DNA from: a virus
DNA: 64,000 bases
Reading direction: 5' to 3' (one strand)
IMG/VR virus record: IMGVR_UViG_3300032053_000032
Coordinates: 21,028-85,027 of that record
Part shown: piece after piece, positions 21,045 through 46,825 of the stretch
Position numbering within the stretch: position 1 is the stretch's first letter
Layout: the number at the start of each line of letters is the position of its first letter
Program-made: the position numbers and the translations under genes
The notes under the pieces: model-generated
What the model was told of the DNA's origin: nothing
Database searches by the model: none
What the model saw: only the letters and a program-made list of their open reading frames with translations

Positions 21045-22417
21045 CCGTCGTTCGTCTCGTCGATGGAGATAAACTTTCCCCACTCGCACGGGTGCTGCTG
21101 ATACGGGCCGACCAAGAGCCAGATGACGGAGGCCCACGGCGGTGGCTCGGCGGGTGCTGGACCCTGCCCATCGGTCACGATGATGATCACGTCTGGCCGC
21201 GGATTCTCGGTATCATCGGGCGGCAACCCAGCCAGGTACTCGAAGACGGGGCAGAAGTCCGTCCCGCCACCACCCTTGAGCTGCGCGGCAGCTTCCTGCC
21301 AGGAAGCCGCGCGTACCGCGGTGTGAACCGTGGCGTCGCAGGTCAGGAATGCCACGGACGCGTTCAGCACGGCGAGCACCCCCGACGCTTCCGCCATCGC
21401 GCGGTTCAGCTCGGCAACGCCCATCGACCCAGACGTGTCGACCACGAACGCAACGTTCGGCACGAACTCGTAGAAGCCGGCGAGGCGAGGCTTCCCTGGT
21501 CCGAAACCGAGCCCTGCCTGGCGCACCGACGTGCGCCGGTAGGTGTAGTCCACCACCCCTGCACGCTGCACGAGCCCGCGGATCGAGTGAGCCAGCTCCT
21601 GCTCCCAGGAGATCTTGGGTGGCTTCAACTCAGCGTCCGCCCACCGCTGAAGTCCTGCCGGAACGTCTCCGCGACCCTTGCTGGCTTCCTCGCGGATCGC
21701 TTCGGCTGTCTCGCGGCGGATCCGGCGGATCTCGGGTTCTGACTTCCCTACCTGACGGCCAGTCGAGTCCTTGGCGTCCTCATCCGGCTCGCCAGGCACC
21801 GCCTGCCCACCGCCGGACCCGCACCACCCGGTTCCCGCGCCGGGCTTGGCGCCCATCTCAGCGGCCTTCTCACCAGCCTTCTGAGCTTCCCCCTTTTCCC
21901 GCCCAGAGCCATTCCCAGACTGGTCTGGAGTTGACCCCCTGCCGAGCGCGGCCAGGCGGTTGTAGTAGTCCTCCGCGATGGATCCGGGCTTGAAGCCGAG
22001 CGTCTGAGGGAGCACCGGCGGGCTGGCCTTGGGCGCGCGGAACTCGCGGTCCTTGGCGTCTGGACCGTAATCGCCGGGCTGCTCGGGCTTGATGAGCACC
22101 AGGTCGTCGTTGATCTCCATGTCGTGCGCGATGTTCCAGAGGCGGTGTTCCCCGGCGTGCTTCTCGCAGCGGGTGAACGACTCGCGGAGCGGATGCATGA
22201 CCTCGTGGCAGAGAACCCAGGCGATCTCGCCCACGGTCCACCTCTCGATGGCCACCGGATCGTAGAGCGCGACCATTCGCGGCGTGATCCCGATGGTGCC
22301 CAGTTCCGGCTGCTCCCGGAACACCATCGAGTTGAGCGCGCGCCGGAAGTAGGGCAGCTTCTGCTTGGCGATGTGCCGGCCGGCCATCAGCTTCGCACGC
22401 GGGGTGAGGGTGGGCAT
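21041..22417 (-). CDS. DUF2201-like metallopeptidase with C-terminal VWA domain
   Basis: 458 residues. N-terminal zinc-type motif HEVMH at 71-75 inside a helical metallopeptidase-like domain. A long Gly/Glu-rich linker (about 165-230) leads to a VWA domain with an intact MIDAS motif DTSGSMG at 327-333 and a TDG at about 414-416. The neighbouring gene upstream encodes a MoxR-type AAA ATPase; such pairs act as chaperones or metal-insertion and remodelling machines in bacteria. Here the pair is separated only by a 48-residue peptide gene. Confidence 0.75.
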   Translation of the reverse strand: MPTLTPRAKLMAGRHIAKQKLPYFRRALNSMVFREQPELGTIGITPRMVALYDPVAIERWTVGEIAWVLCHEVMHPLRESFTRCEKHAGEHRLWNIAHDMEINDDLVLIKPEQPGDYGPDAKDREFRAPKASPPVLPQTLGFKPGSIAEDYYNRLAALGRGSTPDQSGNGSGREKGEAQKAGEKAAEMGAKPGAGTGWCGSGGGQAVPGEPDEDAKDSTGRQVGKSEPEIRRIRRETAEAIREEASKGRGDVPAGLQRWADAELKPPKISWEQELAHSIRGLVQRAGVVDYTYRRTSVRQAGLGFGPGKPRLAGFYEFVPNVAFVVDTSGSMGVAELNRAMAEASGVLAVLNASVAFLTCDATVHTAVRAASWQEAAAQLKGGGGTDFCPVFEYLAGLPPDDTENPRPDVIIIVTDGQGPAPAEPPPWASVIWLLVGPYQQHPCEWGKFISIDETNDG

Positions 22418-22421
22418 CGGG

Positions 22422-22568
22422 CTACTCCTTGCCGTACACGACGGCGGCCTTGAATGCGTAGAAGAACTCGGTATCGGTCCCTTCGGTCACCTCGGCGCGT
22501 ACCTGCTCGATGGTGAAACCGTAGGCGAGAAGGTTAGCGATCCGGCGGATGGTCGAGTTCGTTTCCAT
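22422..22568 (-). CDS. 48-residue peptide from a leaderless-type promoter
   Basis: ATG 22568 is 7 nt after a promoter -10 (CATACT), so mRNA would begin at or next to the start codon. The peptide begins METNS, the same five residues and 15 bases as the unrelated peptide gene at 29746. Mixed helical sequence (IRRIANLLAYGFTIEQVRAE). It leads the VWA gene and may couple to it. Confidence 0.5.
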   Translation of the reverse strand: METNSTIRRIANLLAYGFTIEQVRAEVTEGTDTEFFYAFKAAVVYGKE

Positions 22569-22604
22569 GAGAAGCAGTATGCTCGCTTTCCGCGTTGTAT
22601 GCAA
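22569..22604 (-). promoter_or_regulatory. Promoter cassette: up-type A with down-type alpha
   Basis: On the minus strand: TTGCAT, a 17-nt spacer containing GGAAAGCG, then CATACT and 7 nt (GCTTCTC) to the ATG. The upstream block at 22600-22616 is shared with the promoter at 24217, and the downstream block is shared with the promoter at 29710. Confidence 0.65.
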
Positions 22605-22628
22605 CAACTATTTTGCGGAAAGCGACGA

Positions 22629-23849
22629 TTAGCGACGTGACCGAGGCTGGAGGCCGGTCGCCTTGACGAACGGCTGCATCTTGGCGAGCACCGGCCGGGC
22701 TTCCGGGATTTGCGACAGCTCGCTATCGATGAGCGTTCCCATCGGGCGGATGCAGAGGTCAGCCATCTCGCCGACCACCTCCCCGAGGATGCCCCAGAGG
22801 ACCGTCGCGCGCGCCTTCCGCTTGTCGAGCTTCCGGTCTTCGAGGATGGTGGCGCACGCGTTGAGCGTGACCTCGGTGCGGTCGATGCGGTCCGGGTCGT
22901 GCGACCACTTCGTCACGCGGTCCATGACGTCGAGCGGGTTCGGCAGGTCGACCTTTTCGCGGTACTCGAACAGCTCCGAAGCTGCGCCGGCCCCCACAAA
23001 CGACGCAACGAACTCCTCCGCATCGCCGACTTCGAGCCCGTTCACCTCACCGGAGGACAGCGCGCGGGCTGCATTCTCCCAGGAGCGCGGAGAGCACCAC
23101 GCGCGGCCGGCCTTCCCGTCTCCGAGCTTGGGCACCTTCAGGAGCGCGTCGGGCACGGCCTTGATGTAGCCGGCGACCACCGCGCGCGCCTTCGCCCACG
23201 GGCTGCCCCAGTTCTCCATCACCCGAGCTTCTTCAGAAGCTGCCGATCCAAGCACGACTTCGGTGTGACGGTCGGCACCGGACCCGAGGAGCCAGGACGT
23301 CCACTCGCCGACGTCCGGCCGGTTGTCCTGAAGCCAGGGCAGGTGCCCCATGCGGTTCGCGACCGGGGCAGGCAGCTCGCTTCCACCCGCGGACAGCTCC
23401 GGCGGGTTGGCTGCTCCGAAGATGCGGACGCGCCGCCCGAGGAAGTGCGCGCCGATCCGCTTCTCGTGGATGAGCCCCATCAGCGCGGGACGAAGCGCAG
23501 CGGGCGCCGTGTTCGTCTCGTCCACGAAGACGATGCCCACCGGAACTCCCTGGGCATCAAGCAGGTTGTCGGTCCACTCCGGGGGTGGGTAGGTGAGGAT
23601 CATGCGGTCCACGATCTTGCCGTCCGGGTACTTGAACGGGCGGATCTCGGGCACCGGCGTCACGCCGAATGCGCCCTCCTGGCGCTCACCTGGCGACAGC
23701 ACCTCGACGTACAGCCCAGTCTCCCGGCCGAGCTGGAGGATCGCTTCGGTCTTCCCGACACCGGGAACGTCCCAGAGCAGCATGGGAAGGCCCCAGCCGC
23801 GGCTGGTGGGCGTGAAGAGTGCGGCGCGGAGAATATCGAGGCGGCTCAT
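22629..23849 (-). CDS. MoxR-type AAA+ ATPase
   Basis: 406 residues from ATG 23849 with CAGGAG upstream; longer frames run through a structured intergenic element. Walker A DVPGVGKT at 27-34, Walker B IVFVDE at 106-111, and a sensor-like GAANPP. MoxR ATPases remodel partner complexes together with VWA proteins, and the VWA metallopeptidase is the next large gene. The N-terminus lacks any extra domain. Target unknown; possibly host takeover or virion maturation. Confidence 0.8.
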   Translation of the reverse strand: MSRLDILRAALFTPTSRGWGLPMLLWDVPGVGKTEAILQLGRETGLYVEVLSPGERQEGAFGVTPVPEIRPFKYPDGKIVDRMILTYPPPEWTDNLLDAQGVPVGIVFVDETNTAPAALRPALMGLIHEKRIGAHFLGRRVRIFGAANPPELSAGGSELPAPVANRMGHLPWLQDNRPDVGEWTSWLLGSGADRHTEVVLGSAASEEARVMENWGSPWAKARAVVAGYIKAVPDALLKVPKLGDGKAGRAWCSPRSWENAARALSSGEVNGLEVGDAEEFVASFVGAGAASELFEYREKVDLPNPLDVMDRVTKWSHDPDRIDRTEVTLNACATILEDRKLDKRKARATVLWGILGEVVGEMADLCIRPMGTLIDSELSQIPEARPVLAKMQPFVKATGLQPRSRR

Positions 23850-23887
23850 GTAATTGGCTCCTGGTAGAGGTCTTGGGCAAAGCGTCC

Positions 23888-24001
23888 CGCTCGTGCCCGG
23901 CGCAACGTGGTCCTGGTGTTCTGGAAGGCTTTTGTATCGCCTTGCCGAACCTGGGCCTCCGTTACGGGCCGAGGTGGGAGCCGTTGCGCCGGGCACGAGC
24001 G
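23888..24001. other. 114-nt element with perfect 20-bp inverted ends and two inner hairpins
   Basis: Bases 23888-23907 and 23982-24001 are exact reverse complements (20/20). Inside, 23925-23943 forms AAGGC/GCCTT with a 9-nt loop, and 23950-23974 forms a GGCC/GGCC hairpin extended by CCT/AGG. The whole folds as a closed multibranch structure on either strand. It sits between a zinc peptide gene and the MoxR gene on the minus strand. It could be a structured RNA in the operon leader or a tiny MITE-like inverted-repeat element; no clear target duplication is seen. Confidence 0.55.
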
Positions 24002-24021
24002 AGGCGTTCCGCGCCAGTCTG

Positions 24022-24216
24022 TTACTCCTCGTCGATGCAGGCGAGGCAGGTCGCTCGGTGAGCGCGGACGGTGTCCGCGACGCACGCGGGGCACATCGGC
24101 GCTTCGCACCGGGGGCAGTACATGCCGCCGGAGTCATCTCCGCAGCCCGTGCAGATCTCCGGGTTGGTGTTTTCGTCAGTGCGGTCGTACTCCATCGCGT
24201 TCGTCTGATTGCTCAT
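24022..24216 (-). CDS. Small zinc-binding protein
   Basis: 64 residues from ATG 24216, 7 nt downstream of a promoter -10. Four Cys pairs (CTGC, CPRC, CPAC, CLAC) suggest a cross-braced or double zinc-ribbon fold. Such small zinc proteins often mediate protein or nucleic-acid contacts. It is followed by the inverted-repeat element and the MoxR gene. Confidence 0.55.
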   Translation of the reverse strand: MSNQTNAMEYDRTDENTNPEICTGCGDDSGGMYCPRCEAPMCPACVADTVRAHRATCLACIDEE

Positions 24217-24252
24217 GTTTCTTACTATGCTCGCTTTCCTCGGTTTGTGCAA
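24217..24252 (-). promoter_or_regulatory. Promoter cassette: up-type A with down-type beta
   Basis: Minus strand TTGCAC, 17 nt with GGAAAGCG, CATAGT, then AAGAAAC and ATG. The upstream block 24248-24264 matches the one at 22600-22616 in 16 of 17 bases, and the downstream block matches that of the promoter at 26718. Confidence 0.65.
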
Positions 24253-24297
24253 GAACTATTTTGCAGCTCAGCGTTTTATTTCAAGTGCCGTCGGTGA

Positions 24298-24537
24298 CTA
24301 CTCGTGGCTGGTGTCGCCGTCGTCCTTGTGGTGCTCGCAGCTCGCGCACCAGACGATGCCCTCCAAGGTCCGCTTGAGGGACAGGCTGACGCACTCGGGG
24401 CACAGCACGTGCCCACACCCGACGCAAACCTTCGCTCCAGGCGTGAGCACGTAGCCGAGATCTTCCACGAACTCGACCACGGAAGTCCCGCAGGACTCGT
24501 CGAGCGGTGCGCCAGGGCAGTTGGAGTTCGAGGCCAC
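24298..24537 (-). CDS. Small zinc-binding protein
   Basis: 79 residues from GTG 24537. CVGC and CPEC followed by CASC with a nearby His pair suggest one or two zinc sites. Acidic, His-containing tail (CEHHKDDGDTSHE). Function unknown; it belongs to the run of small Cys-rich proteins in this operon. Confidence 0.5.
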   Translation of the reverse strand: MASNSNCPGAPLDESCGTSVVEFVEDLGYVLTPGAKVCVGCGHVLCPECVSLSLKRTLEGIVWCASCEHHKDDGDTSHE

Positions 24538-24574
24538 TAGTACTCGCCCTTGGCATCAAAGTGCGCGTCATCAC

Positions 24575-24781
24575 TCACTTCTTCTCCGTTAGCGTGATCG
24601 TCAGATTGTGTGCAGTGTCCTTGGACAAGACATCAATTGCCCATGAAGTCGTCAGGGACTTATCTGCAATCGAAGGGTGATGTGCTCTGACCCAAGCGTG
24701 GATGGCTTCAACAATCTCACTCGAATCGAGTATGACCTTCACAGGCAACTCCTCTGGCATTTCCCGATACGGGTTTGTCAT
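24575..24781 (-). CDS. Small hypothetical protein
   Basis: 68 residues, ATG 24781 preceded by TGAGGT. Alpha/beta composition with VKVILDSSEIVEAIHAWVRA and a beta-like end (NLTITLTEKK). The stop of the 37-residue gene upstream lies within its ribosome binding region, so translation may be coupled. Confidence 0.45.
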   Translation of the reverse strand: MTNPYREMPEELPVKVILDSSEIVEAIHAWVRAHHPSIADKSLTTSWAIDVLSKDTAHNLTITLTEKK

Positions 24782-24788
24782 AAATACC

Positions 24789-24902
24789 TCACAGGCGGCT
24801 CGTCGTGAGAATCGAACTCACGTAATTCCCAGAGTCTGATGTCCAACGGAGTTCGCCGTGCGTCGCGATCTCGTTAGCTACCTTCCTTAACCAGTTCGGC
24901 AT
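24789..24902 (-). CDS. 37-residue hypothetical peptide
   Basis: ATG 24902 to TGA at 24789-24791; starts MPNWLRKVANEIATHGELRW. The DNA looks at first like a tRNA T-arm but no matching acceptor stem exists, while the reading frame is clean and its stop forms part of the next gene's SD (TGAGGT). No strong SD of its own. Confidence 0.4.
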   Translation of the reverse strand: MPNWLRKVANEIATHGELRWTSDSGNYVSSILTTSRL

Positions 24903-24935
24903 ACTGCAAGCGTGGGAGGTGCCGTAACAACTAGG

Positions 24936-25619
24936 TTAAACGCCGCGCTTTTTCAGCACACCGACGTGTTTAGCCACGCCGGCAGCACCCGAGATCGCGA
25001 ACAGCACCTCCATGTCCGCCTCCAGATCTGCCAGTCGCTGGCCGCCCGCGTCGAAGACGGCCTGGATCCGGTTCAAAGTCTCGCGCCGAACGACCACAGC
25101 CAGCGTCATGTCCGACGCGATCTGCACCGCCCAGCGAGGCGCGTAGGTGCCGGCCGGGCGGACGTACACCTCCATCTGCCGCGGCCCATGGATCGCTGCT
25201 TGGCGCTGTTTCCGAAGCGGCGGGTAGACGACGCCCGCCATCCCGTGGCCGTCGATCTGAACATAGCGCCGAACCTCGTAGCTAGTCTCGATCCGGTCGA
25301 CGTTGCTTCGCTGGATCGAAGCCGTCCCGTTACCCGCTGACACGAGTCCAGCCACGGCCATCTCCTTGCGCACCCGTTCCTGCCCAGACTTCATCTGCCG
25401 ACGCTGGCAGTGGCCCTCGACGACGTCTGACCCCTGGTGGCGGTAGAGATCCCGCGTTGCGCCACCGCACCATGGGCACTTCACCACGCCTTCCAAGCGG
25501 GATCTCTCGGCTTTAGCCGCGCGAGCGACCGCGACGCGCTCGACCATCGCGTCTCGCTTCTGGAGCAAGTTGTCGATGGACACCGACGGGACCAGCGACT
25601 CGTTCACGGGAGTAGTCAT
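24936..25619 (-). CDS. Hypothetical protein with N-terminal Cys/His zinc motif
   Basis: 227 residues from ATG 25619, which overlaps the previous stop by one base; longer frames run into the upstream gene. A zinc-like group CPWCGGATRDLYRH with a further HC follows a helical N-terminus. The central part is beta-rich (VRRYVQIDGHGMAGVVYPPL). It ends with a Gly/Ala helix and KKRGV. No known family; co-transcribed with the cyclotransferase-like gene. Confidence 0.5.
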   Translation of the reverse strand: MTTPVNESLVPSVSIDNLLQKRDAMVERVAVARAAKAERSRLEGVVKCPWCGGATRDLYRHQGSDVVEGHCQRRQMKSGQERVRKEMAVAGLVSAGNGTASIQRSNVDRIETSYEVRRYVQIDGHGMAGVVYPPLRKQRQAAIHGPRQMEVYVRPAGTYAPRWAVQIASDMTLAVVVRRETLNRIQAVFDAGGQRLADLEADMEVLFAISGAAGVAKHVGVLKKRGV

Positions 25620-26245
25620 CAGCGGGCCTTCCTGCGCGCTTTCGTGATCATGAGATCGGACGGCACGCTGCGCACGGGGTTGAGGTAGTTCGTCTCGCGC
25701 GCCAGCGCCTCGCCGCGGTGGCCTGCCCAGGTGTCCGCCCACGAGGCCAGCATCGAGGCGCGGGTGGCGGCTGCTTGCTTGTCGGCGTGCATCTGGCGCG
25801 CGGCCGACTGGCGGATCGCATCGTCGAGAGGAGCAAGCGCCCACCCCATCGCGAGGTAAGCGCGGGCGATCTGTCGAAGGTAGCCGTTCGTCGGCGCGCC
25901 GTAGGCGAAGGGCGTCACCTGCCGGTAGACGTGCGCCTTGACGGCCTTCCCGCTCGGAACGAACACCGGGAACACGTCACGTGCGTACGTCCACGGCGCA
26001 CCTTCGTAGCCGTCTAGCTTGGCAAGGTCTGCGCTGCTGACTTCCCACACGAGCCCGCGCACGACGTCGTTGCGGCTGGCTGCCTCCACCGTGGCAACCG
26101 TCGAGCCCCAGCTGCGCGAGTAGCCGGCGAACAGAAGCCGCTGCCCGCGCAGCTCGGCTGGAGCCACGAGGTCGGAGGATGGGCAGCGGTGCGCCATCTG
26201 CGCTGCGTCCATGTTCGACCCGAACGCGAAGACGAGCTGGCTCAC
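25619..26245 (-). CDS. Gamma-glutamyl cyclotransferase-like protein 1 (AIG2/GGCT fold)
   Basis: 208 residues. FAFGSNMDAAQM at 6-17 is the conserved substrate-binding loop of GGCT enzymes, and DGYEGAPWTY has Glu81 in the catalytic position. GGCTs release 5-oxoproline from gamma-glutamyl amides. The C-terminal about 60 residues are a basic extension. Together with a second GGCT and an amidoligase 1.3-3 kb upstream it suggests making and breaking of amide or gamma-glutamyl linkages. Confidence 0.75.
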   Translation of the reverse strand: MSQLVFAFGSNMDAAQMAHRCPSSDLVAPAELRGQRLLFAGYSRSWGSTVATVEAASRNDVVRGLVWEVSSADLAKLDGYEGAPWTYARDVFPVFVPSGKAVKAHVYRQVTPFAYGAPTNGYLRQIARAYLAMGWALAPLDDAIRQSAARQMHADKQAAATRASMLASWADTWAGHRGEALARETNYLNPVRSVPSDLMITKARRKAR

Positions 26246-26433
26246 GTGCTACCTCCTGCGAACGCGGATGGGATCCCGCTGGCCACCCGATCGCGATCAA
26301 GCTCGATTAGGCGCACCAGGTCGAGCTGTTCGACGAACACCCAACGATAGCCGCGGCCGGCCGCGTCCTTGTCGAGCGACTTCAGGAACGCCCATGTGAG
26401 CGGGTAGAAGTGCATGATCTTCATGTTGCTCAT
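26242..26433 (-). CDS. Small hypothetical protein
   Basis: 63 residues from ATG 26433 (overlaps the previous stop as ATGA). Starts SNMKIMHFYPLTWAFLKSLD and ends in a short acidic/Gly tail. Predicted alpha/beta. Unknown function. Confidence 0.5.
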   Translation of the reverse strand: MSNMKIMHFYPLTWAFLKSLDKDAAGRGYRWVFVEQLDLVRLIELDRDRVASGIPSAFAGGST

Positions 26434-26717
26434 CGACCCACCCGACGGATCGGCCGAGCGTTGAGCTGCGCAACGATGAACTGCGCGAGCGCGACCCACT
26501 CGCCAGGGGTAGGTGCCCAGAGGCGCTGCCCTTCGTTGCCGCAGCAGCCATCGGCGCAGCGGTCATCGAAGATGTTGACCAGCACGTCGACTTCGACGCG
26601 GAACGCCTTGGCCGTCATCAGCGACGCCTTCTGAGCCGCAGTCCACTGGATGCGGAGGACGTTGGCAGGCTGAAGGCTGAGGACTCGGCCGGCCGCTTGA
26701 ATTTGCGTTTTGCTCAT
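26430..26717 (-). CDS. Small hypothetical protein from a leaderless-type promoter
   Basis: 95 residues from ATG 26717, 7 nt after CATAGT. Two Cys in the CADGCC cluster near residue 58. Predicted alpha/beta with a Trp-containing helix (TPGEWVALAQFIVAQL). First gene of a short minus-strand group that ends with GGCT 1 and the zinc-motif protein. Confidence 0.5.
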   Translation of the reverse strand: MSKTQIQAAGRVLSLQPANVLRIQWTAAQKASLMTAKAFRVEVDVLVNIFDDRCADGCCGNEGQRLWAPTPGEWVALAQFIVAQLNARPIRRVGR

Positions 26718-26775
26718 GTTTCTTACTATGGGCGCTTTCCGCGTTGTATGCAAGGGGCAAAATGCGATTTCTTCG
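26718..26775 (-). promoter_or_regulatory. Promoter cassette: up-type B with down-type beta
   Basis: Minus strand TTGCAT (26748-26753), 17-nt spacer with GGAAAGCG, CATAGT (26725-26730), 7 nt, ATG. A 27-nt upstream block (26749-26775) is identical to the block at 29688-29714 before the plus-strand promoter. The downstream block equals that of the promoter at 24217. Confidence 0.65.
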
Positions 26776-26808
26776 GAAATCGTACAAGCTACCGTAACTG
26801 CTAGCGTG

Positions 26809-27093
26809 CTAGGCGACCTCTTCCACGAGCTTCGCGCTGATCAACGAAGCGATGATGCGCTGACAGAGCACGTCCATCGCGGTCACGGCTCCCACCTTGC
26901 CGGCCGGTGTCTCGTCGGTGCGCTCCGACGACACGTCGATCAGAAGCCCGGTCTGCTGCATCACCCGATGAAGCAACGTGACGACATACTCGCCCAGCGT
27001 CTCACCAGGTGAGAAGTCCATCGCGCGCAGCGACTCGATGATCTGGCGCGCAGTCCCCTGGTGCAGTCGTCCGTCCGGCATCTTGATCCGCAT
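26809..27093 (-). CDS. Small hypothetical protein
   Basis: 94 residues, ATG 27093 with AGGGAGGA upstream. Predicted mostly helical (LGEYVVTLLHRVMQQTGLLI) with no Cys cluster except one. Immediately downstream of GGCT 2, with 2 nt between them, so probably a functional partner. No family recognised. Confidence 0.5.
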   Translation of the reverse strand: MRIKMPDGRLHQGTARQIIESLRAMDFSPGETLGEYVVTLLHRVMQQTGLLIDVSSERTDETPAGKVGAVTAMDVLCQRIIASLISAKLVEEVA

Positions 27094-27095
27094 GG

Positions 27096-27494
27096 CTAGT
27101 CCTCCCTGGTGTAGTCGATCGCGTTGTAGTGACTGGCGACGCCGTCGAGCCAGTCTCCCGTCGGAATCTCGATGTTGCTCCACTTCCGATCGTGGCTCAT
27201 CACGTACCCGAGGACGGTGGAGCCGTCCAGCAGGTGAATCAACTGACGGTGGTACAGGCTAGGAGCACCTTCCAGGCGATCGAGGCGCGCCAGGGTCTTG
27301 TCGTCCACCTGGTAGACTTCCCCGACGATGGGCACCCCGCGCCACGTCCAGGTGATGCAAGGGTACCCACCGAGGTGCCACATCTGCCAGGTGGGCTCCG
27401 TGCGCGCGTGACGCAAGAAGGTAGCGCCGGCCAGGTGGTAGTGGTTTCCCTGACCAGAGCGGAGCGTGCCGTACACAAAGACTTCGGTGAGCAT
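27096..27494 (-). CDS. Gamma-glutamyl cyclotransferase-like protein 2 (AIG2/GGCT fold)
   Basis: 132 residues, close to the typical GGCT length. VFVYGTLRSGQGNHY at 5-19 is the substrate loop, and LDRLEGAPSLYHR provides catalytic Glu75. Only 23 bp separate it from the amidoligase gene, so the two are likely co-expressed. In known comparative analyses amidoligases of this type are often encoded with GGCT-like enzymes, which would remove or recycle the ligated group. Confidence 0.8.
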   Translation of the reverse strand: MLTEVFVYGTLRSGQGNHYHLAGATFLRHARTEPTWQMWHLGGYPCITWTWRGVPIVGEVYQVDDKTLARLDRLEGAPSLYHRQLIHLLDGSTVLGYVMSHDRKWSNIEIPTGDWLDGVASHYNAIDYTRED

Positions 27495-27517
27495 CGCGAT
27501 CTCCTGTCTTGGGCGGG

Positions 27518-28486
27518 TTAGCTGTTGTCGTCCGACGAGGCGGCCGCGATGACCGCTGCGGTGGCAAGCTGGAAGGACACGGAACCGCTGGAGGCCGCAG
27601 TGGCGACGGGCGCCGCGGTAAAGGCCGCCATCAGGTGGGTGCGCACGGTGCTGAACTCCTCACCCTTGCTGAAGCCGAGCTTGCTGACCAGGTACGTCAT
27701 GCCCGCGCGGTCCGCCGTGATGGGCGTCGAGAGGGGGATGGAGGTCTTCCAGGTCTTGCAGCGAGCGACCATCGCGAGGCAGAGCTGGATGTACGCCTTG
27801 ACTTTGCCAGCGTGAAGGGTCGAGTTGAAGAGGCGGAACTCCACGGTGCCCTTGGTCCAGACCGCGTGAAGGTTCAGGGCCTGGTAGCGGCTGCCATCGT
27901 AGTGCGTGGGGTAGTTCTCGACACGGCCGTACCAGGCGCGTGAGAGGCCGCGCGAATCCTTGGCGATGGTAGCGCGCTCCGAAGCAGGAGCGCGGCGCAG
28001 ACGCTCGCAGAGGGTCTTGCCAAGCTTCTTGCAGTACTGTTCGCGACGGGGAAGGACCGCGAGCGACGTGAAGAGCAGATCCTGGTAGTAGTGCATGAGC
28101 GACGCGAGGTTGATGGTGTTCTGCGCCGTGAGCGACTCGGCGCCGACATGGACGTGGATGCCACACGACTCGTCAACCTGCGCGCCGCAAGCGCGAACGG
28201 CGCGAACAACCGCCTGAACCGTGTCGAGGTCGCTGTACACGAGGATGGGCGAGACGACTTCCGCGCCACCGTTACAGGGAAGCGACCCGTCGCGCATCGA
28301 CTTCCAGACGCGCCCGTCGGTGGCAGTAACGATCCAGGTATCGTAGCTATCGTGCGTGTGGGTGACGACGCCACCGACGACCGACTGAACGGCCTCTGCA
28401 ACAACCTGGCGGCTCTTGCCGAACGTTTCGACTTCGAGGCCAAAGCGGAAAGACTTCATCGACTCGGTCTGGTTCGCGGTGGTCAT
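27518..28486 (-). CDS. Amidoligase (COOH-NH2 ligase, glutamine-synthetase-like fold)
   Basis: 322 residues. Signature elements of the putative amidoligase family: FGLEVE at 15-20, CGIHVHV near 108, and GTVEFRLFNSTL in the C-terminal half. Such enzymes ligate carboxyl and amino groups to make peptide-like tags or metabolites. Two GGCT-like genes follow in the same operon. ATG is 7 nt from TATAGT, a leaderless layout. The Ala/Ser-rich C-terminal tail is not part of the fold. Confidence 0.8.
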   Translation of the reverse strand: MTTANQTESMKSFRFGLEVETFGKSRQVVAEAVQSVVGGVVTHTHDSYDTWIVTATDGRVWKSMRDGSLPCNGGAEVVSPILVYSDLDTVQAVVRAVRACGAQVDESCGIHVHVGAESLTAQNTINLASLMHYYQDLLFTSLAVLPRREQYCKKLGKTLCERLRRAPASERATIAKDSRGLSRAWYGRVENYPTHYDGSRYQALNLHAVWTKGTVEFRLFNSTLHAGKVKAYIQLCLAMVARCKTWKTSIPLSTPITADRAGMTYLVSKLGFSKGEEFSTVRTHLMAAFTAAPVATAASSGSVSFQLATAAVIAAASSDDNS

Positions 28487-28522
28487 GAGAGGTACTATAT
28501 GCGTATTCTGTGCCAGTCGCGG
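28487..28522 (-). promoter_or_regulatory. Promoter of the amidoligase operon
   Basis: TATAGT at 28494-28499 on the minus strand is 7 nt from the ATG. The -35 position is weak, but TGGCACAGAATACGCATA lies just upstream and is repeated in almost the same form before the divergent gene at 28929. An AAACCGC element precedes both copies. It may be an activator-dependent promoter; the TGGCAC-N5-nnGCA spacing also resembles sigma-54 sites. Confidence 0.5.
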
Positions 28523-28762
28523 TTTCTGCGGTCGCTTACGTGGTTTCGCACACTTAGCCGAATGACGTGCCCAAGCGAGTGCCGCAAATTGTCTCTAAGA
28601 GTTACGCCTACTTACGTGCAAATAGCTGAAATTGCAGGTAACGCGGAGACTGCAATTAGTGCATAGCTTGCCGTAAATTGTCACTTCGCGCTGAGCGAGC
28701 AAACGTATCCTTTATACGCGGTTTCTGCGGAACACGCGTACCCGGCTTTTGCGCTCGTAAGC

Positions 28763-28783
28763 GGCTAGTTTGACTAGCCTTTT
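28763..28783 (+). terminator. Small hairpin with T run
   Basis: GGCTAG, 5-nt loop, CTAGCC, then TTTT. The stem is only 6 bp, so this is a weak intrinsic terminator candidate, perhaps insulating the two divergent operons. Confidence 0.4.
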
Positions 28784-28834
28784 GCTACCAGAAGCACCCC
28801 AGTGACTTCACCTACCTGTGACGCCAACGGCACA

Positions 28835-28852
28835 CGGTCAACATGTTGACCG
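28835..28852. promoter_or_regulatory. 18-bp perfect palindrome, operator candidate
   Basis: CGGTCAACATGTTGACCG is a perfect dyad about 75 bp upstream of the gene at 28929. Such a site would suit a dimeric HTH regulator. No second copy was found in this window. Confidence 0.5.
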
Positions 28853-28883
28853 GCTAGGTAAGTATGAGGAATGACATAGCTGG

Positions 28884-28928
28884 CACGGGCAAACCGCCTA
28901 TGGCACAGAAAACGCATAGAGAGAAGAT
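28884..28928 (+). promoter_or_regulatory. Promoter of the plus-strand early block
   Basis: AAACCGC, 3 nt, then TGGCACAGAAAACGCATA, matching the amidoligase promoter element on the other strand in 17 of 18 bases. CATAGA is 8 nt from ATG 28929; GAGAGAAG may also serve as a ribosome site. Confidence 0.5.
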
Positions 28929-29459
28929 ATGTCAAACACCGGTTACGAGAACGCACCCCAGACGCTCCTCCTCGCTACGAACTGCGCTGCGTGCAATCGC
29001 CCGCTCTGCGACAGCGTCTCGGTGAACGCCGGCATCGGTCCCGAGTGCCGCAAGAAGTACGGTTACAACGATGACGCGACGCCCGAAGCGCGTGCTGAAG
29101 CGAACCAGATCGTCTGGTCCATCGCGGTCGCGGGCTCGACCGTCTCCAGCGTCGAGGCCGCGTGCCGTCTCGCTGAGCTGGGGTTTGGCAAGCTCGCGCG
29201 CAAGATCATCGAGCGCACCGCCGACATCGTCATCGAGCTGTCGAGCTGCGGCACCCTCTACATGGTGACCACGCCCTACAACGAGGCGGCCACCAGCGAC
29301 TTCCGCAACATCCCCGGCCGCCGCTGGCTGAAGGCGCTCAAGGAGAACCACATCCCCGTCACCTCGCGCCGCCAGCTCTGGAACGCGCTCTGCGCCCACT
29401 TCACCGGGATGATCGGCTGCGGTCCGTCGGGCGCTTTTGTAGTTCAGGCGGTGCGCTAG
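28929..29459 (+). CDS. DUF6011-like zinc-motif protein
   Basis: 176 residues. Residues about 19-45 (CAACNRPLCDSVSV, then GIGPECRKKYGY) form the CxxC...C signature often seen in phage proteins near helicases and in DUF6011 proteins. The remainder is helical, with a C-terminal GMIGCGPSGAF. Probably nucleic-acid binding; unproven. Confidence 0.6.
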   Translation: MSNTGYENAPQTLLLATNCAACNRPLCDSVSVNAGIGPECRKKYGYNDDATPEARAEANQIVWSIAVAGSTVSSVEAACRLAELGFGKLARKIIERTADIVIELSSCGTLYMVTTPYNEAATSDFRNIPGRRWLKALKENHIPVTSRRQLWNALCAHFTGMIGCGPSGAFVVQAVR

Positions 29460-29686
29460 TGGGCGCTGTCGACTTCATGTCGCAGCAGGGGCTGTTCCGC
29501 GAGCACGACGTCATCCTCGTCCTGGCGACGCCGCGCACCGTCTGCGGACGTCTCACGCCGGCCATCTGGCAGATCCAGCAACAGAGCCAGAACCGTCGCT
29601 GTCGGCGGTGCTACCCCAACGAGGTAGCCGCGCGGAGCGCCGAGCACGCCATGAGCACGCGCGTCACCGACGGGCAGAAAAAATAA
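29459..29686 (+). CDS. Small hypothetical protein
   Basis: 75 residues from GTG 29459 (1-nt overlap with the previous stop); ATG 29477 is an alternative. Contains a CRRC pair. Downstream sequence holds a leaderless-type promoter. Weakly supported function. Confidence 0.45.
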   Translation: MGAVDFMSQQGLFREHDVILVLATPRTVCGRLTPAIWQIQQQSQNRRCRRCYPNEVAARSAEHAMSTRVTDGQKK

Positions 29687-29687
29687 A

Positions 29688-29745
29688 CGAAGAAATCGCA
29701 TTTTGCCCCTTGCACAAACTGAAGAAAGCGAGCATACTGCTTCTC
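29688..29745 (+). promoter_or_regulatory. Promoter cassette: up-type B with down-type alpha
   Basis: TTGCAC (29710-29715), 17 nt with AGAAAGCG, CATACT (29733-29738), GCTTCTC, ATG. The upstream 27 nt are identical to those of the promoter at 26718, and 29724-29761 is identical to the minus-strand segment 22553-22590. Confidence 0.65.
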
Positions 29746-29877
29746 ATGGAAACGAACTCGAAGAAGACGACGCTCAAGTTCAAGGTGGTCTGCATGGAGT
29801 GCGGGCGCAAGTTCAGCACATCCTCGACGCTTCCGAGCTGCTCCAAGTGTGGCTCATCCGACATCGAGGTTGCGTAG
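29746..29877 (+). CDS. 43-residue zinc-ribbon peptide
   Basis: Starts METNSKK and carries CMECGRKF and CSKCGSSD, a minimal zinc ribbon. ATG 29746 lies 7 nt after the -10. Zinc-ribbon peptides of this kind resemble regulators of nucleic-acid-binding complexes. The next gene starts directly at its stop. Confidence 0.55.
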   Translation: METNSKKTTLKFKVVCMECGRKFSTSSTLPSCSKCGSSDIEVA

Positions 29878-30651
29878 ATGGCGCGCATGGCCCGCGCAAG
29901 CCGCAAGCCCTTCCCGACGGAAACGGCTCTCCTGCCGTTCCTGGCCATTCAGGTCTTGCACTCGGTTTTCTTCCCCGAATGGCGGCATCTTCGAGCGTGG
30001 GACCTCTGGATCGCCGCTACTTCCGAACAAGTCTATGGCGGCTTCAGCACGCCGCTCGCCCGCTTCGGGGAAGCTCTCGCGTGGGCAGGAGCTGCCGCGG
30101 TCGCCCAGGACATCGTGGGGCGTTGCAGTGTGCGCGCTGAAGTGCGGATCGAAGCGGGCATTCAGGTGGACGCTTCACCGTGGGAGCTGGCGCAGCTTCA
30201 GGCGATGTCGACCGGCATCGTGCGCAAGGACCAACTCAACCCGGTTGCCGCGCTGTACGCCAAGTATCGCGCCGAGAAGTCGCAGAACATCGCGGTGCTC
30301 AAGAACGAGCACTTCGGCGCCATCGGTGACCGCGTGTCCGTCAAGCTCCGCGTCGAGATGGTCAAGGAGCTGGAGCCGAGCACCCAGTATAACGTCGCGT
30401 ACGCGTCACGAAACACCCGTAACAATCTGCGCACGCTCCTCCGCTTCGTGGACGACGCCGGCCGCGTGTTCGTCTGGTTCGCGTCGCACGCTGCAAACGA
30501 TGTATTCGCGCAGCACGGCGCCGACGGCCTGAAGCCCGTGAAGCCCGGTTCCACCTACAACGTGGTGGGTACAGTCCTCAAGCAGGACGAGTTCCGCGGG
30601 CAGAAGTCCACGATGCTCAGCCGCTGTGTCTTGACGGCGTTCGCCGAATAG
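29878..30651 (+). CDS. Hypothetical protein
   Basis: 257 residues, ATG directly after the previous stop; an in-frame ATG follows at codon 4. The N-terminal half is helical (WDLWIAATSEQVYGGF); the C-terminal about 80 residues look beta-rich with an OB-like pattern (LRTLLRFVDDAGRVFVWFAS, then GSTYNVVGTVLKQDEFRG), which suggests nucleic-acid binding. Not recognised. Confidence 0.5.
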   Translation: MARMARASRKPFPTETALLPFLAIQVLHSVFFPEWRHLRAWDLWIAATSEQVYGGFSTPLARFGEALAWAGAAAVAQDIVGRCSVRAEVRIEAGIQVDASPWELAQLQAMSTGIVRKDQLNPVAALYAKYRAEKSQNIAVLKNEHFGAIGDRVSVKLRVEMVKELEPSTQYNVAYASRNTRNNLRTLLRFVDDAGRVFVWFASHAANDVFAQHGADGLKPVKPGSTYNVVGTVLKQDEFRGQKSTMLSRCVLTAFAE

Positions 30652-30673
30652 TTCACAAACTGCAAAAAGAACC

Positions 30674-30703
30674 TTGACACAAACTACACAATTCGCGTAA
30701 AGT
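30674..30703 (+). promoter_or_regulatory. Sigma-70-like promoter
   Basis: TTGACA at 30674-30679 and TAAAGT at 30698-30703, 18-bp spacer. Leader about 45 nt with CAGGAG before ATG 30750. It lacks the GAAAGCG spacer element of the leaderless family. Confidence 0.55.
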
Positions 30704-30749
30704 ACCTCAGTACCGTAAAGCACTTCACCCGCACAGGAGACACCACGCC

Positions 30750-31328
30750 ATGACGACCAAGACGCCTGCCACCAACCATCCGATCGGAGCCCGTCGCAAG
30801 CCACGCTCCAGCACCCCGGCTACCCCTGCTGCTCCCTCGCCAGCGGTTATTGCAGCGCAGCCGGCGACTTCGGCAGCGGAAGCTGCCGCCACCCCGGCCG
30901 TGCCCAAGCGGTCGCGCACCAGCGAGATCGCTTCGTGGGCCAACCGTCAGCACGACATTGCCAAGAAGCTGATCGGGCGCGTCGAGCGGTACGACAACGC
31001 TCACGCGGTGGCTGCTGCCACACTGCTCACCGAAGCGTCGCGCCTCCTTCACGAGGCCAGCATCGCTCTCGCGCAGGTGCCGGCAGACGCGGTTGCGCGG
31101 CGTGGGCGCCGCAGCGGCAAGGCTGAGATCAAGGTGGGGGACGTCTGCGGGATCACCTCAAAGTTCCTCGACGAGTACACCGACCTGCTCGCGGACGGAG
31201 ACATCGACGGACCGATGACGGTCCTCAAGACCGGCGTGAAGACCGTCAGCGTGCAGACCGCGAGCGGCGAGAAGCTGCCCATGGTCCCGCGAAAGCACCT
31301 CGTCCTCTGCAAGCCCAAGGCTGCGTGA
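30750..31328 (+). CDS. Hypothetical protein with Ala/Pro-rich N-terminus
   Basis: 192 residues. Residues 1-55 are low-complexity Ala/Pro/Thr with basic patches. Residues about 60-110 form an amphipathic helix pair, and the C-terminal about 70 residues (VGDVCGITSKFLDEYTDLLA, then VSVQTASGEKLPMVPRKHLV) look like a small beta barrel. Possible nucleoid or DNA-binding protein. Unknown family. Confidence 0.5.
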   Translation: MTTKTPATNHPIGARRKPRSSTPATPAAPSPAVIAAQPATSAAEAAATPAVPKRSRTSEIASWANRQHDIAKKLIGRVERYDNAHAVAAATLLTEASRLLHEASIALAQVPADAVARRGRRSGKAEIKVGDVCGITSKFLDEYTDLLADGDIDGPMTVLKTGVKTVSVQTASGEKLPMVPRKHLVLCKPKAA

Positions 31329-32188
31329 TGGGCCTCGCAAACGGGCAGAACGCGCTCGGGGTGGTCGTCGTTCCGGGCAACGAGTGGCTGGTCGCTGGGG
31401 CGCTTGTTCTCTGGAGGCTCTCCGGCGTCACCGATGATGATCAGCTTGGCGCGGCGTGGTCGCGCGCAGGGCTCGACCGCGCGATGCTTCCCAAGGAGAC
31501 GTCGCTCAAGGACGCGATGAGGATCGCGGTGCAGAAGCAGGTGGCGAAGCACCGGCTCGTGCGACGAACGTCGACGGGCTGGCAGATCGTGGACGAACGC
31601 GAGCTGGCCTCCTCCGACGATCTGGAGTGGACGCCTACCTGCAAGGTGAAGCTGGACAAGGTCGGCCGGCTCGACATCAGGCCCGCCGATCACGCGCTCG
31701 CGCCGGCCATCCGCGCCGCGTACGACCTTGCGCAGGAGACGCTCTCGACCAACCGCACGTCATCGTGGCTCGTCTCGCTCGTGCATCACTGCCGCGGCGT
31801 TTCGATCACCCGTGAAGGCGGGATGTACTTCATCCCGAACGCGCTCCTCCCGGTCTGGCGGACGATGACCGGGGCGATCCGAGAAGCGACAATGCACAGC
31901 ACCTACGAGATCCCGGCCATGACGGCTGACGACGTCGTTCGCCTCGTGCTTGACGCCGTCGTCGATGAAGCCACGAAGCTCACGACCATCATCGAGACGG
32001 AACTGGACACCGGCGATCTCGGCCGTGATGCGCTCGCCACCCGTTACGACAAGATCGTGGCGGTCTGCGCCAAGGCAGAGACGTACGAAGCTCTGCTCGA
32101 CAACCGGCTCGACAAGATCCGCGAACGGCTGATCACGCTCCAGGCTTCCATCACGGAAGCCGCTCTCGCGAAAGGGGACGACCAATGA
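31328..32188 (+). CDS. Hypothetical helical protein
   Basis: 286 residues from ATG 31328, which overlaps the previous stop; GTG 31325 is one codon earlier. N-terminal region with WLVAGALVLWRLSGV, then long charged helices (about 200-280) that may form a coiled coil. Resembles large uncharacterised proteins common in phage early regions. Overlaps the sigma-like gene by ATGA. Confidence 0.45.
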   Translation: MGLANGQNALGVVVVPGNEWLVAGALVLWRLSGVTDDDQLGAAWSRAGLDRAMLPKETSLKDAMRIAVQKQVAKHRLVRRTSTGWQIVDERELASSDDLEWTPTCKVKLDKVGRLDIRPADHALAPAIRAAYDLAQETLSTNRTSSWLVSLVHHCRGVSITREGGMYFIPNALLPVWRTMTGAIREATMHSTYEIPAMTADDVVRLVLDAVVDEATKLTTIIETELDTGDLGRDALATRYDKIVAVCAKAETYEALLDNRLDKIRERLITLQASITEAALAKGDDQ

Positions 32189-32799
32189 TCGAGGTGGACG
32201 TCAAGACGATCGGCAAGGTCGCCAAGACGGTAGCGCGCAAGTACGCGCGCAGGTGCTGGTGGGCGGACAAGGAAGACCTGGAGCAGGAGGCGCTCCTCAC
32301 GATCCTCCAGTGCCGCTACACCTTCAAGCAGGACGTCCACCGCCAGCCGCACGAAGTCGGCGACCGCGGCGTGCCATTCGAGAAGTACGCCGCCCGCGCG
32401 GCCATGCTCGCGCTGCGGGTCTACCTTCTGCGCGAGTCGGCGCCCGTGTCGGCGCGTGGCAACAACGGCGCGATGGGGGTGCTCGCCGGCATCTTCCGTG
32501 CGCCAACGTCCAGCCTCGACCACACGCCTCACGAGGCATGTCTTCAGGATCAGGAAGTCCTTCACCAGCTCTGGCTCTCCAAGGTGCGCGCTGTGGTGGC
32601 GCGCCTCCTTGACGAGATGGACGCTACCGCGACGGGTGCAGCCTTCCTCGCTGAACCCGTACTCTTGCACGACGCGCGGCCGTACGAGGTAGCGCGGCGC
32701 ACCGGCGTGCCTGTCAAGCGGGTCTACCGCGCGGTGCAGCAGTTCAAGGCGTTCGCGGTGGCTGACCCGGAGCTGCACACGCTCTGGAAGGCCAGGTAG
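32185..32799 (+). CDS. Divergent sigma-70-family-like factor
   Basis: 204 residues. WWADKEDLEQEALLTILQCR near 25-45 has the region 2 pattern (DLxQE), and PYEVARRTGVPVKRVYRAVQ near 165-185 looks like a region 4 helix-turn-helix. Between them is an unusual Ala/Arg-rich stretch. It could direct host RNA polymerase to phage promoters such as the GAAAGCG family. The sigma assignment is by pattern and needs profile confirmation. Confidence 0.55.
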   Translation: MIEVDVKTIGKVAKTVARKYARRCWWADKEDLEQEALLTILQCRYTFKQDVHRQPHEVGDRGVPFEKYAARAAMLALRVYLLRESAPVSARGNNGAMGVLAGIFRAPTSSLDHTPHEACLQDQEVLHQLWLSKVRAVVARLLDEMDATATGAAFLAEPVLLHDARPYEVARRTGVPVKRVYRAVQQFKAFAVADPELHTLWKAR

Positions 32800-32828
32800 C
32801 TAGTCAAGCGCCGCGTGCAAGATTCAAG

Positions 32829-32857
32829 TTGACGCTTTCGCGGAAAGCGCGCATATT
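32829..32857 (+). promoter_or_regulatory. Promoter with GGAAAGCG spacer and normal leader
   Basis: TTGACG, 17 nt including CGGAAAGCG, CATATT. It belongs to the same promoter family but is followed by a 24-nt leader with AGGAG before ATG 32882. Confidence 0.6.
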
Positions 32858-32881
32858 ACAGGACACGCATAGGAGAATCGC

Positions 32882-33109
32882 ATGGGGACACAGGCCGAGA
32901 AGATGATTGCAGACGGGTACATGCCAGCGCCGGAAGTCGCGCGACTGGTCGGGAGGGACATCTCCAGCGTGTACCGCTGGATCACGAACAAGCACATCGA
33001 GGCAGAGCGCGTGGGGCGCGCCTGGTACATCAAGCGCACGTCGCTCGTCACGTACCTCGGGGAACCGGCCGCGCGCCGCTTCGGGATCGTGCTGGATAGC
33101 GAGGCGTGA
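32882..33109 (+). CDS. Helix-turn-helix excisionase/MerR-type regulator
   Basis: 75 residues. MPAPEVARLVGRDISSVYRW followed by a wing (AERVGRAWYIKRTSL) matches the HTH_17/excisionase-like DNA-binding fold. ATG has AGGAG at good distance. Possible repressor or transcription factor for the neighbouring promoters. Confidence 0.65.
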   Translation: MGTQAEKMIADGYMPAPEVARLVGRDISSVYRWITNKHIEAERVGRAWYIKRTSLVTYLGEPAARRFGIVLDSEA

Positions 33110-45706: not shown

Positions 45707-46825
45707 GTGCTGCGACTCGCGCTCATCGCAGACTGTCACGTTGGGAACCATGCGAGGTTCGGTGGTCCCATTACCGCTGGGCTCAACCTCCGCTGCCGCA
45801 TAATCTTGGACTCGATCAGGAAGGCTGCCTGGCTCGCAGCCGATACCCGCAGCGAGCTAGTCATCCTCGGCGACCTGTTCGACACGGTTACCCCGACGCC
45901 GCAGATCGTCGCTGCTGTCGGAGACGCTCTTACCCGCGTGAGTCACGTTCACATGCTCGTCGGGAACCACGATCAAGTGAGCTTGCTGAACGGGGATCAT
46001 GCTCTCGGACCGCTGAGCAAGATGCCCAACGTGACCGTGTACCAGTCTCCCGACATCATGTACGCCGGCACCGAGGAGGTCTGGTTCGTCCCATTCCGAC
46101 CCGGTGACGCCCGTGCCTGGCTCCCTGGTGTTCTCGCCGACCTAGAGGCTGCCGCCGATCTGGTTCATCGGGGCGTTGACGCTCACCGGCTGGAGGGTCG
46201 CATCCTCGCGCTGCACCTCGGGCTCGAACGCGCTGAGATCGCGCCCTTCATGAAGGGCCATTACGACGCCATCCCGATTGGCCAGCTCGACGAGCTGTGC
46301 AAGCAGTTTAGTATCACGCACGTGTTCGCCGGCAACTGGCATTCTCGATGGGAGGGTCGAGGCCCGAAGTCCCGTGCATACCTGATGCAGGTGGGCACGC
46401 TAGCGCCGACCGGGTGGGATAATCTAGGCGCGCGCAACTACGGTACCGTCGCGCTATTCAGCCAGGGCGATGTCGAGATAGAGGAGGTTGTCGGACCACG
46501 CTTCCTCACCGTGAAGTCCGACGATGACCTAGCTGCCGCTTTCCTCCTGCGCGAGCAGCATCACGTCTTCGTGCGCGAGTTCGTAGCCGACGGCAGGTTT
46601 CCCTGCCCTGCTGATGAAGCCAAGAAGTTCGCTGGCTACGAAGTCGCGCGGGACAAGCAAGAGACGACCATCGCCGTGCGCACCGCTGCAACCGTCGCCC
46701 GATCCGCATCTACGATGGACGAGGCGCTCGTCGGGTTCATCGCGGAGATGGGCCTGGAGGACGGCATCGATCGCTCCGCTGTACTGGCGCAAGCCAAGCT
46801 GTACCTCGCCAAGGAGACGTCGTGA
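45707..46825 (+). CDS. SbcD/gp47-like nuclease subunit
   Basis: 372 residues from GTG 45707, directly after the recombinase stop. Metallophosphoesterase motifs ADCHVGNH at 8-15, GDLFD near 54-58, GNHDQ near 85-89, LHLGL and GNWHS. Partner of the SbcC-like ATPase encoded 1.5 kb downstream; together they resect DNA ends for recombination. Contains the 41-bp segment 46108-46148 that is duplicated at 59600-59640. Confidence 0.85.
   Translation: MLRLALIADCHVGNHARFGGPITAGLNLRCRIILDSIRKAAWLAADTRSELVILGDLFDTVTPTPQIVAAVGDALTRVSHVHMLVGNHDQVSLLNGDHALGPLSKMPNVTVYQSPDIMYAGTEEVWFVPFRPGDARAWLPGVLADLEAAADLVHRGVDAHRLEGRILALHLGLERAEIAPFMKGHYDAIPIGQLDELCKQFSITHVFAGNWHSRWEGRGPKSRAYLMQVGTLAPTGWDNLGARNYGTVALFSQGDVEIEEVVGPRFLTVKSDDDLAAAFLLREQHHVFVREFVADGRFPCPADEAKKFAGYEVARDKQETTIAVRTAATVARSASTMDEALVGFIAEMGLEDGIDRSAVLAQAKLYLAKETS
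46108..46148. repeat. 41-bp exact repeat, copy 1
   Basis: Identical to 59600-59640, 13.5 kb away, and read in the same codon frame in both genes (RAWLPGVLADLE). Lies within the SbcD-like gene. Confidence 0.85.

Follow-up and report, generated by a model that had tools for sequence, protein, structure and literature searches.

Four short promoter-like sites in the DNA of a virus, which we call S1 to S4, are probably leaderless sigma70-type promoters that descend from a common cassette and were copied and recombined, thereby joining promoters to new genes. They lie in a window of 64,000 nt (positions 21028-85027 of the 85,027-nt viral record IMGVR_UViG_3300032053_000032 in IMG/VR), and coordinates below are those of the window unless the record is named. 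PHROG matches to tail sheath, baseplate wedge, large terminase, and portal proteins identify a contractile-tailed phage. The four cassettes lie in a variable small-gene region of this phage, in which the copying and recombination would have taken place.

Results

The four sites share TTGCA(C/T), a 17-nt spacer with GAAAGCG, CATA(C/G)T, and a distance of 7 nt to the ATG of an open reading frame (ORF). S1 (22566-22604, minus strand) reads TTGCAT-17-CATACT-7-ATG, S2 (24214-24252, minus) TTGCAC-17-CATAGT-7-ATG, S3 (26715-26753, minus) TTGCAT-17-CATAGT-7-ATG, and S4 (29710-29748, plus) TTGCAC-17-CATACT-7-ATG. A sequence-only reading of this DNA had placed four promoters of this form here, and a pattern search bears it out: TTGCA-N(16-18)-CATANT-N(4-12)-ATG occurs four times in the window versus 0.01 expected, and none of 100 shuffles reached four. 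Over the whole 85,027-nt record, S1 to S4 were the sole matches to TTGCA-N(16-18)-CATANT, with one match to the reversed control pattern.

Aligned on the ATG, the four copies form a mosaic. Between the shared TTGCA, GAAAGCG, CATA.T, and ATG, the columns make up three pure consecutive blocks: an upstream block pairing S1 with S2 (form A) and S3 with S4 (form B) over 8 columns; a block from the -35 into the spacer pairing S1 with S3 (form 1) and S2 with S4 (form 2) over 4 columns; and a block from the -10 into the codons pairing S1 with S4 (form alpha) and S2 with S3 (form beta) over 12 columns. The sequence-only reading had the combinations A-alpha, A-beta, B-beta, and B-alpha right and had missed the middle block, which makes the mosaic stronger. 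Because the three blocks represent all three possible splits of four sequences, a tree that fits one block contradicts the other two. The 24 two-and-two columns from -50 to +12 are ordered eight, four, and twelve without mixing, an order that did not recur in 200,000 shuffles; the test concerns order only, and adjacent columns within a copied block are not independent. Singletons were not counted, and three informative columns of the middle type (at -60, -59, and about +37) were omitted as lying beyond the visible similarity.

Block A is GCAAAATAGTT, found at S2 and within the sequence upstream of S1 (CGCTTTCCGCAAAATAGTTG; 22605-22624, minus). Block B of S4 (CGAAGAAATCGCATTTTGCCCC; 29688-29709, plus) is an exact copy of the S3 block. 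Upstream of S3 lies a small inverted repeat, CGATTTC-CGAA-GAAATCG (26765-26782, minus), half of which is retained at S4; the 36-nt stretch around it has a folding energy of -7.2 kcal/mol.

The longest in-register identity, 38 nt between S1 and S4, runs through the ATG and the METNS codons, as expected from the earlier claim that block alpha reaches into the first codons of two peptides. It is followed by 27 nt for S3-S4 and 21 nt each for S1-S3 and S2-S3, whereas among ATG-anchored stretches of the same record 79,800 control pairs reached 15 nt at most. The longest runs of S1-S2 (14 nt) and S2-S4 (13 nt) are not above the controls and fall within the core common to nearly all copies. These pairs are the weaker halves of the mosaic: the upstream match of S1 and S2 is an 11-nt run, and the middle match of S2 and S4 contains two mismatches. 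The simplest explanation of this pattern is that the sites were copied and then recombined within the boxes they share.

The geometry of the sites suggests that they act as promoters and that initiation is leaderless. The -35/-10 spacing is 17 nt in all four, and the hexamers are partly consensus. Among 1,185 ATG codons opening at least 30 codons (genes and non-genes alike), YATANT stands exactly 7 nt upstream in five cases, while the remaining 44 distances hold nine cases in total, none or one at each; four of the five are the S1 to S4 copies, and the amidoligase gene at 28486 supplies the remaining one. When the -10 requirement was loosened, the record gave 16 cases at 7 nt and 1 to 9 at each of 30 other distances, many of these cases lying in improbable reading frames. 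Shine-Dalgarno (SD) pairing is weak at S1 to S4 (-3.8, -3.8, -1.4, and -3.8 kcal/mol, against a median of -6.6 across 33 hand-picked comparison genes), and the GC content at third positions of the ORFs behind them, 0.78 to 0.87, is consistent with coding. The fixed distance and the weak pairing agree with the leaderless starts that the sequence-only reading had proposed. Such starts have precedents: in Deinococcus-Thermus, leaderless genes are expressed from a -10 motif about 6 to 7 bp ahead of the ORF, and a correctly placed -35 strengthens this expression (PMC12340547); phage transcripts are often leaderless according to PMC5312081. Promoter readings with sigma54 (TTGCA as the -12) or an extracytoplasmic function (ECF) sigma factor were set aside after a look by eye only.

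The sequence-only reading had also listed three related sites lacking some parts, and this claim stands in part. The start of the amidoligase gene (28484-28499, minus) has TATAGT-7-ATG and neither TTGCA nor GAAAGCG; the site at 32829 has GAAAGCG and is leadered (see below); the one at 54006 is a weak match. The last is the start of a ParB_N-domain gene (53299-54006, minus), TTGTCC-17-CAGACT-7-ATG, possibly another leaderless start.

Searches for the same blocks in related phages gave no match: none in viral_contigs with the exact pattern, none in 35 records (of 44 loci) with a pattern that required YATANT, and none in three sigma-bearing records. The YATANT pattern was blind to a TAG form of the -10 found in G007 (IMG/VR 3300042691_048840), a distant relative whose terminase is 51% identical, and there a similar architecture in mixed combinations is present. 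The last 2 kb of G007 (L073, 16580-18574) hold, between small genes, four cassettes TTGCA(C/A)-16-TAG(T/A/C)(A/G)T-7-ATG, with a spacer one base shorter than the 17 nt of S1 to S4. Cassettes 2 to 4 sit behind 16-bp terminator hairpins with T-rich tails, and cassette 1 has no hairpin. Cassettes 2 and 3 have an identical terminator and different start regions, and cassettes 1 and 2 are identical from the end of the spacer to the ATG; the G007 cassettes are a mix-and-match set as well. Over viral contigs, a loosened form of the G007 motif gave four matches, all in G007.

The broadest pattern, TTGCA-N(16-19)-YANNNT-N(3-20)-[AG]TG, matched 19 times over the window and loci, ten of them with 7 nt to the start codon: four are S1 to S4, three are in G007, and three are scattered. 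One of the scattered matches is in our own record (L001, 5890-5926, plus), where TTGCA-18-TACCAT-7-ATG, lacking GAAAGCG, precedes an 82-codon ORF; it may be a chance match or a further leaderless start. With a generic sigma70 consensus and a start codon at 4 to 10 nt, 16 of 17 contigs gave no site and G010 an unrelated one (G006 and G012 were covered in part).

The 8.5 kb around the four sites had no megablast match among 50,697 phage records, blastn of the cassettes against phages returned short matches only (E values of at least 0.7), and the proteins P0001 and P0002 as queries had no relatives in viral_contigs. Of 21 ORFs starting within 22365-33048, which were mechanical picks that include antisense ORFs and miss the sigma gene described below, 18 had no match at an E value of 1e-4 among 16 related contigs. 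S1 and its ORF occupy a 211-nt gap between AAA-like ATPase and VWA genes that are 4 nt apart in G035 (IMG/VR 3300012964_000002), so that either this genome gained a promoter-plus-ORF module or G035 lost one. By eye, the AAA-VWA gap of G034 contains a hairpin and no such promoter. A terminase search of genome_contigs for the host gave two metagenome-assembled contigs labeled proteobacterial (39% and 27% identity), too distant to name it.

Two nearby genes are candidates for regulating the cassettes. A 204-aa protein encoded in the gene run behind S4 (32185-32799, plus) appears to be a divergent phage sigma70-family protein with regions 2 and 4, an assignment that draws on its relatives, namely homologues in G035 and three further contigs (L083, L084, and L085). 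Alone, the protein stays below the Pfam cutoff (Sigma70_r2, E value of 0.0098, 16.1 versus 24 bits; Sigma70_r4_2 at no listed E value). Within the family, Sigma70_r2 is matched in four of five members (best E value, 1.1e-7), Sigma70_r4_2 in two of five (best, 0.011), and the PHROG_1740 sigma factor in three of five (best, 8.6e-7). The single-sequence fold is poor (predicted local distance difference test score [pLDDT] of 50.5); with five sequences the pLDDT is 71.7 and the predicted template modeling score 0.42. Residues 1 to about 86 of the latter model superpose on sigma2 domains in five of the 50 listed matches, with root mean square deviations of 1.6 to 2.1 Å over 67 to 73 residues and at a Z score of about 9 that is attainable by chance in helical folds; longer alignments have deviations near 15 to 18. 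Foldseek gave no E value below 0.001 and low TM-scores, most of the rows shown being RNA polymerase or sigma entries. A PDB sequence search with the protein alone returned nothing relevant, and one with the family profile returned weak matches (best sigma E value, 0.018) mixed with unrelated chains.

The second gene (32882-33109, plus) encodes a 75-aa helix-turn-helix (HTH) protein of the excisionase/MerR-like type (HTH_17; E value of 2.2e-9), a candidate ligand of the spacer box. It lies behind a fifth promoter-like site with the same box (32829-32857, plus), which reads TTGACG-17-CATATT and has the palindrome CGCTTTC-GCG-GAAAGCG in its spacer region. This site is not leaderless because the ATG is 24 nt from the -10, with AGGAG between them. 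The record contains the combined motif GAAAGCGNNCATANT (GAAAGCG-N2-CATANT) five times, only at S1 to S4 and 32829, where 0.003 would be expected given how often its halves occur; four of the five sites are copies, and hence the enrichment is not independent. The sequence-only reading had noticed neither the sigma-like gene behind S4 nor that the HTH promoter shares this box. The GAAAGCG box could be an extended -10 for the phage sigma factor or an operator for the HTH protein, and we infer that the phage may possess such a cognate sigma factor and operator.

In the first case, the same leaderless cassettes would be read by the phage's own sigma factor, GAAAGCG-N2-CATANT being its extended -10; S1 to S4 and the HTH promoter would form one timed regulon, and the sigma gene would first be expressed from a host-type promoter, such as TTGACA-18-TAAAGT at 30674 (plus). 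We give this somewhat less than an even chance. The family matches and the sigma2 superposition favor it, as do the confinement of GAAAGCGNNCATANT to promoter-like sites and the poor fit of S1 to S4 to the host-type consensus, to which 30674 fits at 10 of 12 positions. The copied motif sites and the unspecific Z score detract from it, however, and G035 and the records of L083 to L085 have the sigma homologue but no such sites. Moreover, S4 is itself upstream of the sigma gene, and sites like 30674 are within chance expectation (three found by a simple scan of the region, with a mean of 1.4 expected).

In the second case, the spacer GAAAGCG would be the operator through which the HTH_17 protein represses or times its own promoter and S1 to S4. 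The HTH gene's own promoter has the perfect dyad between its -35 and -10, which suggests this role, and an inverted copy also lies upstream of S1, where CGCTTTCCGC is the inverse of GCGGAAAGCG in the S1 spacer. An HTH gene precedes the helicase gene in G035 and G034 too, and in G007 the place of GAAAGCG beside the -10 is taken by direct repeats, CGCTAG-N3-CGCTAG, exact in three of the four cassettes. The spacers of S2, S3, and S4, however, have one half-site each, and the record contains 15 perfect 7-3-7 palindromes, so a dyad alone is not rare. On balance, we hold this role of the box to be rather unlikely.

Discussion

We propose that the four sites arose from an ancestral cassette consisting of an upstream A/T tract, the -35, the GAAAGCG box, the -10, a 7-nt start region, and the ATG, to which alpha adds the next four codons. 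The sigma70-type promoters (-35 TTGCA, 17-nt spacer, -10 CATANT) would start transcription at the ATG or one base before it, resulting in leaderless mRNAs for four short ORFs, each the first in a gene run. Copies of the cassette would have spread to several positions on either strand and then recombined within the short stretches common to all, TTGCA and GAAAGCG..CATA; crossing-over or conversion there would couple promoters to new genes in the small-gene region. Recombination as the agent of block exchange had already been put forward in the sequence-only reading. Copying on both strands, including first codons, speaks for it, and the lack of a close relative sharing the blocks counts against it.

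Several observations weigh against our proposal. Block exchange is deduced from a single genome and is visible within it alone because the searches turned up no close relative that shares the blocks. Reciprocal crossover between copies on opposite strands or flanking needed genes is impossible without inversion or loss. The AAA-VWA module may be ancestral and then lost in G035, and a scan of 16 related contigs for a -10 at 6 to 8 nt from the start found a like set in G007 only. The S1 to S4 hexamers match the Escherichia coli consensus poorly and a simple scan lists none of them. The same scan lists TTGAAA-18-AATAGT (24284-24255, minus), which lies immediately upstream of S2, overlaps block A in part, and, if used, would give the S2 gene a leader. 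Finally, a good SD sequence is missing from 10 of the 33 comparison genes too (the other 23 reach -4 kcal/mol).

The last points bear on the possibility that the transcripts are leadered, TTGCA and CATANT being operators or start-associated sequences and the true 5' ends lying upstream. Cluster K mycobacteriophages have start-associated sequences whose function is unknown (PMC3203893), and the promoter-like site upstream of S2 would suit this explanation. We nevertheless consider it improbable: a leaderless promoter requires just such a 17-nt -35/-10 spacing and fixed 7 nt to the ATG, and SD pairing before the ATG is weak. Convergence, in which separate promoters were never copied but were shaped by selection for one sigma factor, one operator, and leaderless starts rich in A, accords with the A-rich codons after the ATG and with boxes common to all four that are likely the functional ones, but it is hardly credible, as the exact identities of 38 and 27 nt cover nonconsensus and synonymous positions and lie far above any control pair.

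T4-type phages reportedly carry promoter-early stem-loop (PeSL) cassettes, which are said to have been described by Arbiol in 2010 and Comeau in 2014. Promoter-terminator cassettes of these phages have been credited with gene shuffling between related phages (PMC4503421), and the PeSL work is cited in PMC4177764, PMC5348500, and PMC5931544. Our phage resembles them in having a repeated promoter motif, in four copies, between small variable genes, and G007 does so in having terminator plus promoter cassettes. In contrast to PeSL cassettes, ours have no clear terminator: a weak hairpin is present at S3 only and is not listed as a terminator, whereas three of the four G007 cassettes have strong ones. 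Our promoters also look leaderless, carry the ATG and first codons, and have an internal three-block mosaic. The PeSL phages are T4-type, while ours was identified as contractile-tailed from its genes alone. As to gene shuffling, the AAA-VWA module is present here and not in G035, and close relatives were not found.

PAK_P1-like phages have TTGACA-N17-TAgAAT promoters in intergenic repeats with strongly conserved flanks; as here, several near-identical promoters with a 17-nt spacer cluster in a variable, probably early region of a myophage, but the accessible text describes neither a fixed 7 nt to the ATG nor block swapping (PMC4309531). Some SigA promoters of cluster O mycobacteriophages are predicted to be leaderless, with transcription beginning at the start codon's first base; that source, as far as accessible, does not describe them as copies of one cassette, and the repeats are a separate 17-bp palindrome (PMC4351075). 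The Deinococcus-Thermus cases are bacterial genes for which the accessible text describes no cassette copying (PMC12340547), and there is no sign that our host belongs to that phylum. In cluster K mycobacteriophages, start-associated sequences (SAS) and their extended form (ESAS) are repeats associated with start codons, in some cases with inverted repeats farther up, and their authors suggested them as possible targets of homologous recombination; SAS are linked to translation starts, whereas our element is a pair of promoter-like hexamers (PMC3203893). In the literature searched, where most subscription papers were outside reach, we found no shuffled leaderless cassettes and no paper combining a phage-encoded sigma factor with leaderless starts. 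Our cassettes thus appear to resemble the T4-type promoter-terminator cassettes and the PAK_P1-like repeated promoters, the new elements being the leaderless start and the first codons inside the cassette.

If our proposal is true, it would show how phages supply new small ORFs with a functional start. Since nothing is required between the -10 and the ATG of a leaderless promoter, a single short repeat can carry both the transcription and the translation start and serve as a recombination site. A wider generalization is possible and, in our view, doubtful: phages of this group would disperse promoter, start codon, and first codons as a leaderless-start cassette system, in which sub-promoter blocks recombine independently, captured ORFs simultaneously gain expression, a start site, and a new N terminus, and the copies belong to one regulon under a phage-encoded sigma or HTH factor; a distant relative would show the design again, spelled in different letters. 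Candidate regulators are encoded close by, namely the sigma-like and HTH proteins, and our phage together with G007 makes the idea testable.

Neighboring genes and further observations

S1, S2, and S3 precede leftward genes and S4 precedes rightward genes. Behind S1 lies a 48-aa ORF (22422-22568, minus), between the AAA ATPase and VWA genes, that begins with METNS and shares its first codons with the S4 ORF. The S2 ORF (24022-24216, minus) encodes a 64-aa Cys-rich protein with a B-box zinc finger match below the Pfam cutoff and is followed by the AAA-like gene (22629-23849). Between these two, at 23872-24017, is an imperfect 36-nt inverted repeat, 81% complementary, with its arms 74 nt apart. 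The ORF behind S3 (95 aa; 26430-26717, minus) has no assigned function. That behind S4 (29746-29877, plus) encodes a 43-aa zinc-ribbon-like protein, also METNS..., with Pfam matches below the cutoff, and opens a rightward run of genes starting at 29746, 29878, 30750, 31325, and 32185; S1 to S4 may each drive a whole gene run.

At 27096-28486 (minus), a Gamma-glutamyl cyclotransferase-like gene (PHROG_2520) lies beside the amidoligase gene (Amidoligase_2); together the two enzymes could make gamma-glutamyl bonds and remove them again. The adjacent divergent intergenic region (442 nt; 28487-28928) contains CCGCAGAAACCGCG twice (marked by GAAACCG at 28526 and 28725, minus), a palindrome near 28838 seen by eye (GTCAACATGTTGAC), and a terminator-like hairpin at 28763-28779. 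Elsewhere in the window are an exact 41-nt direct repeat (46108-46148 and 59600-59640, 13.5 kb apart) and an exact 22-nt inverted repeat (4779-4800 and 52906-52927, 48 kb apart).

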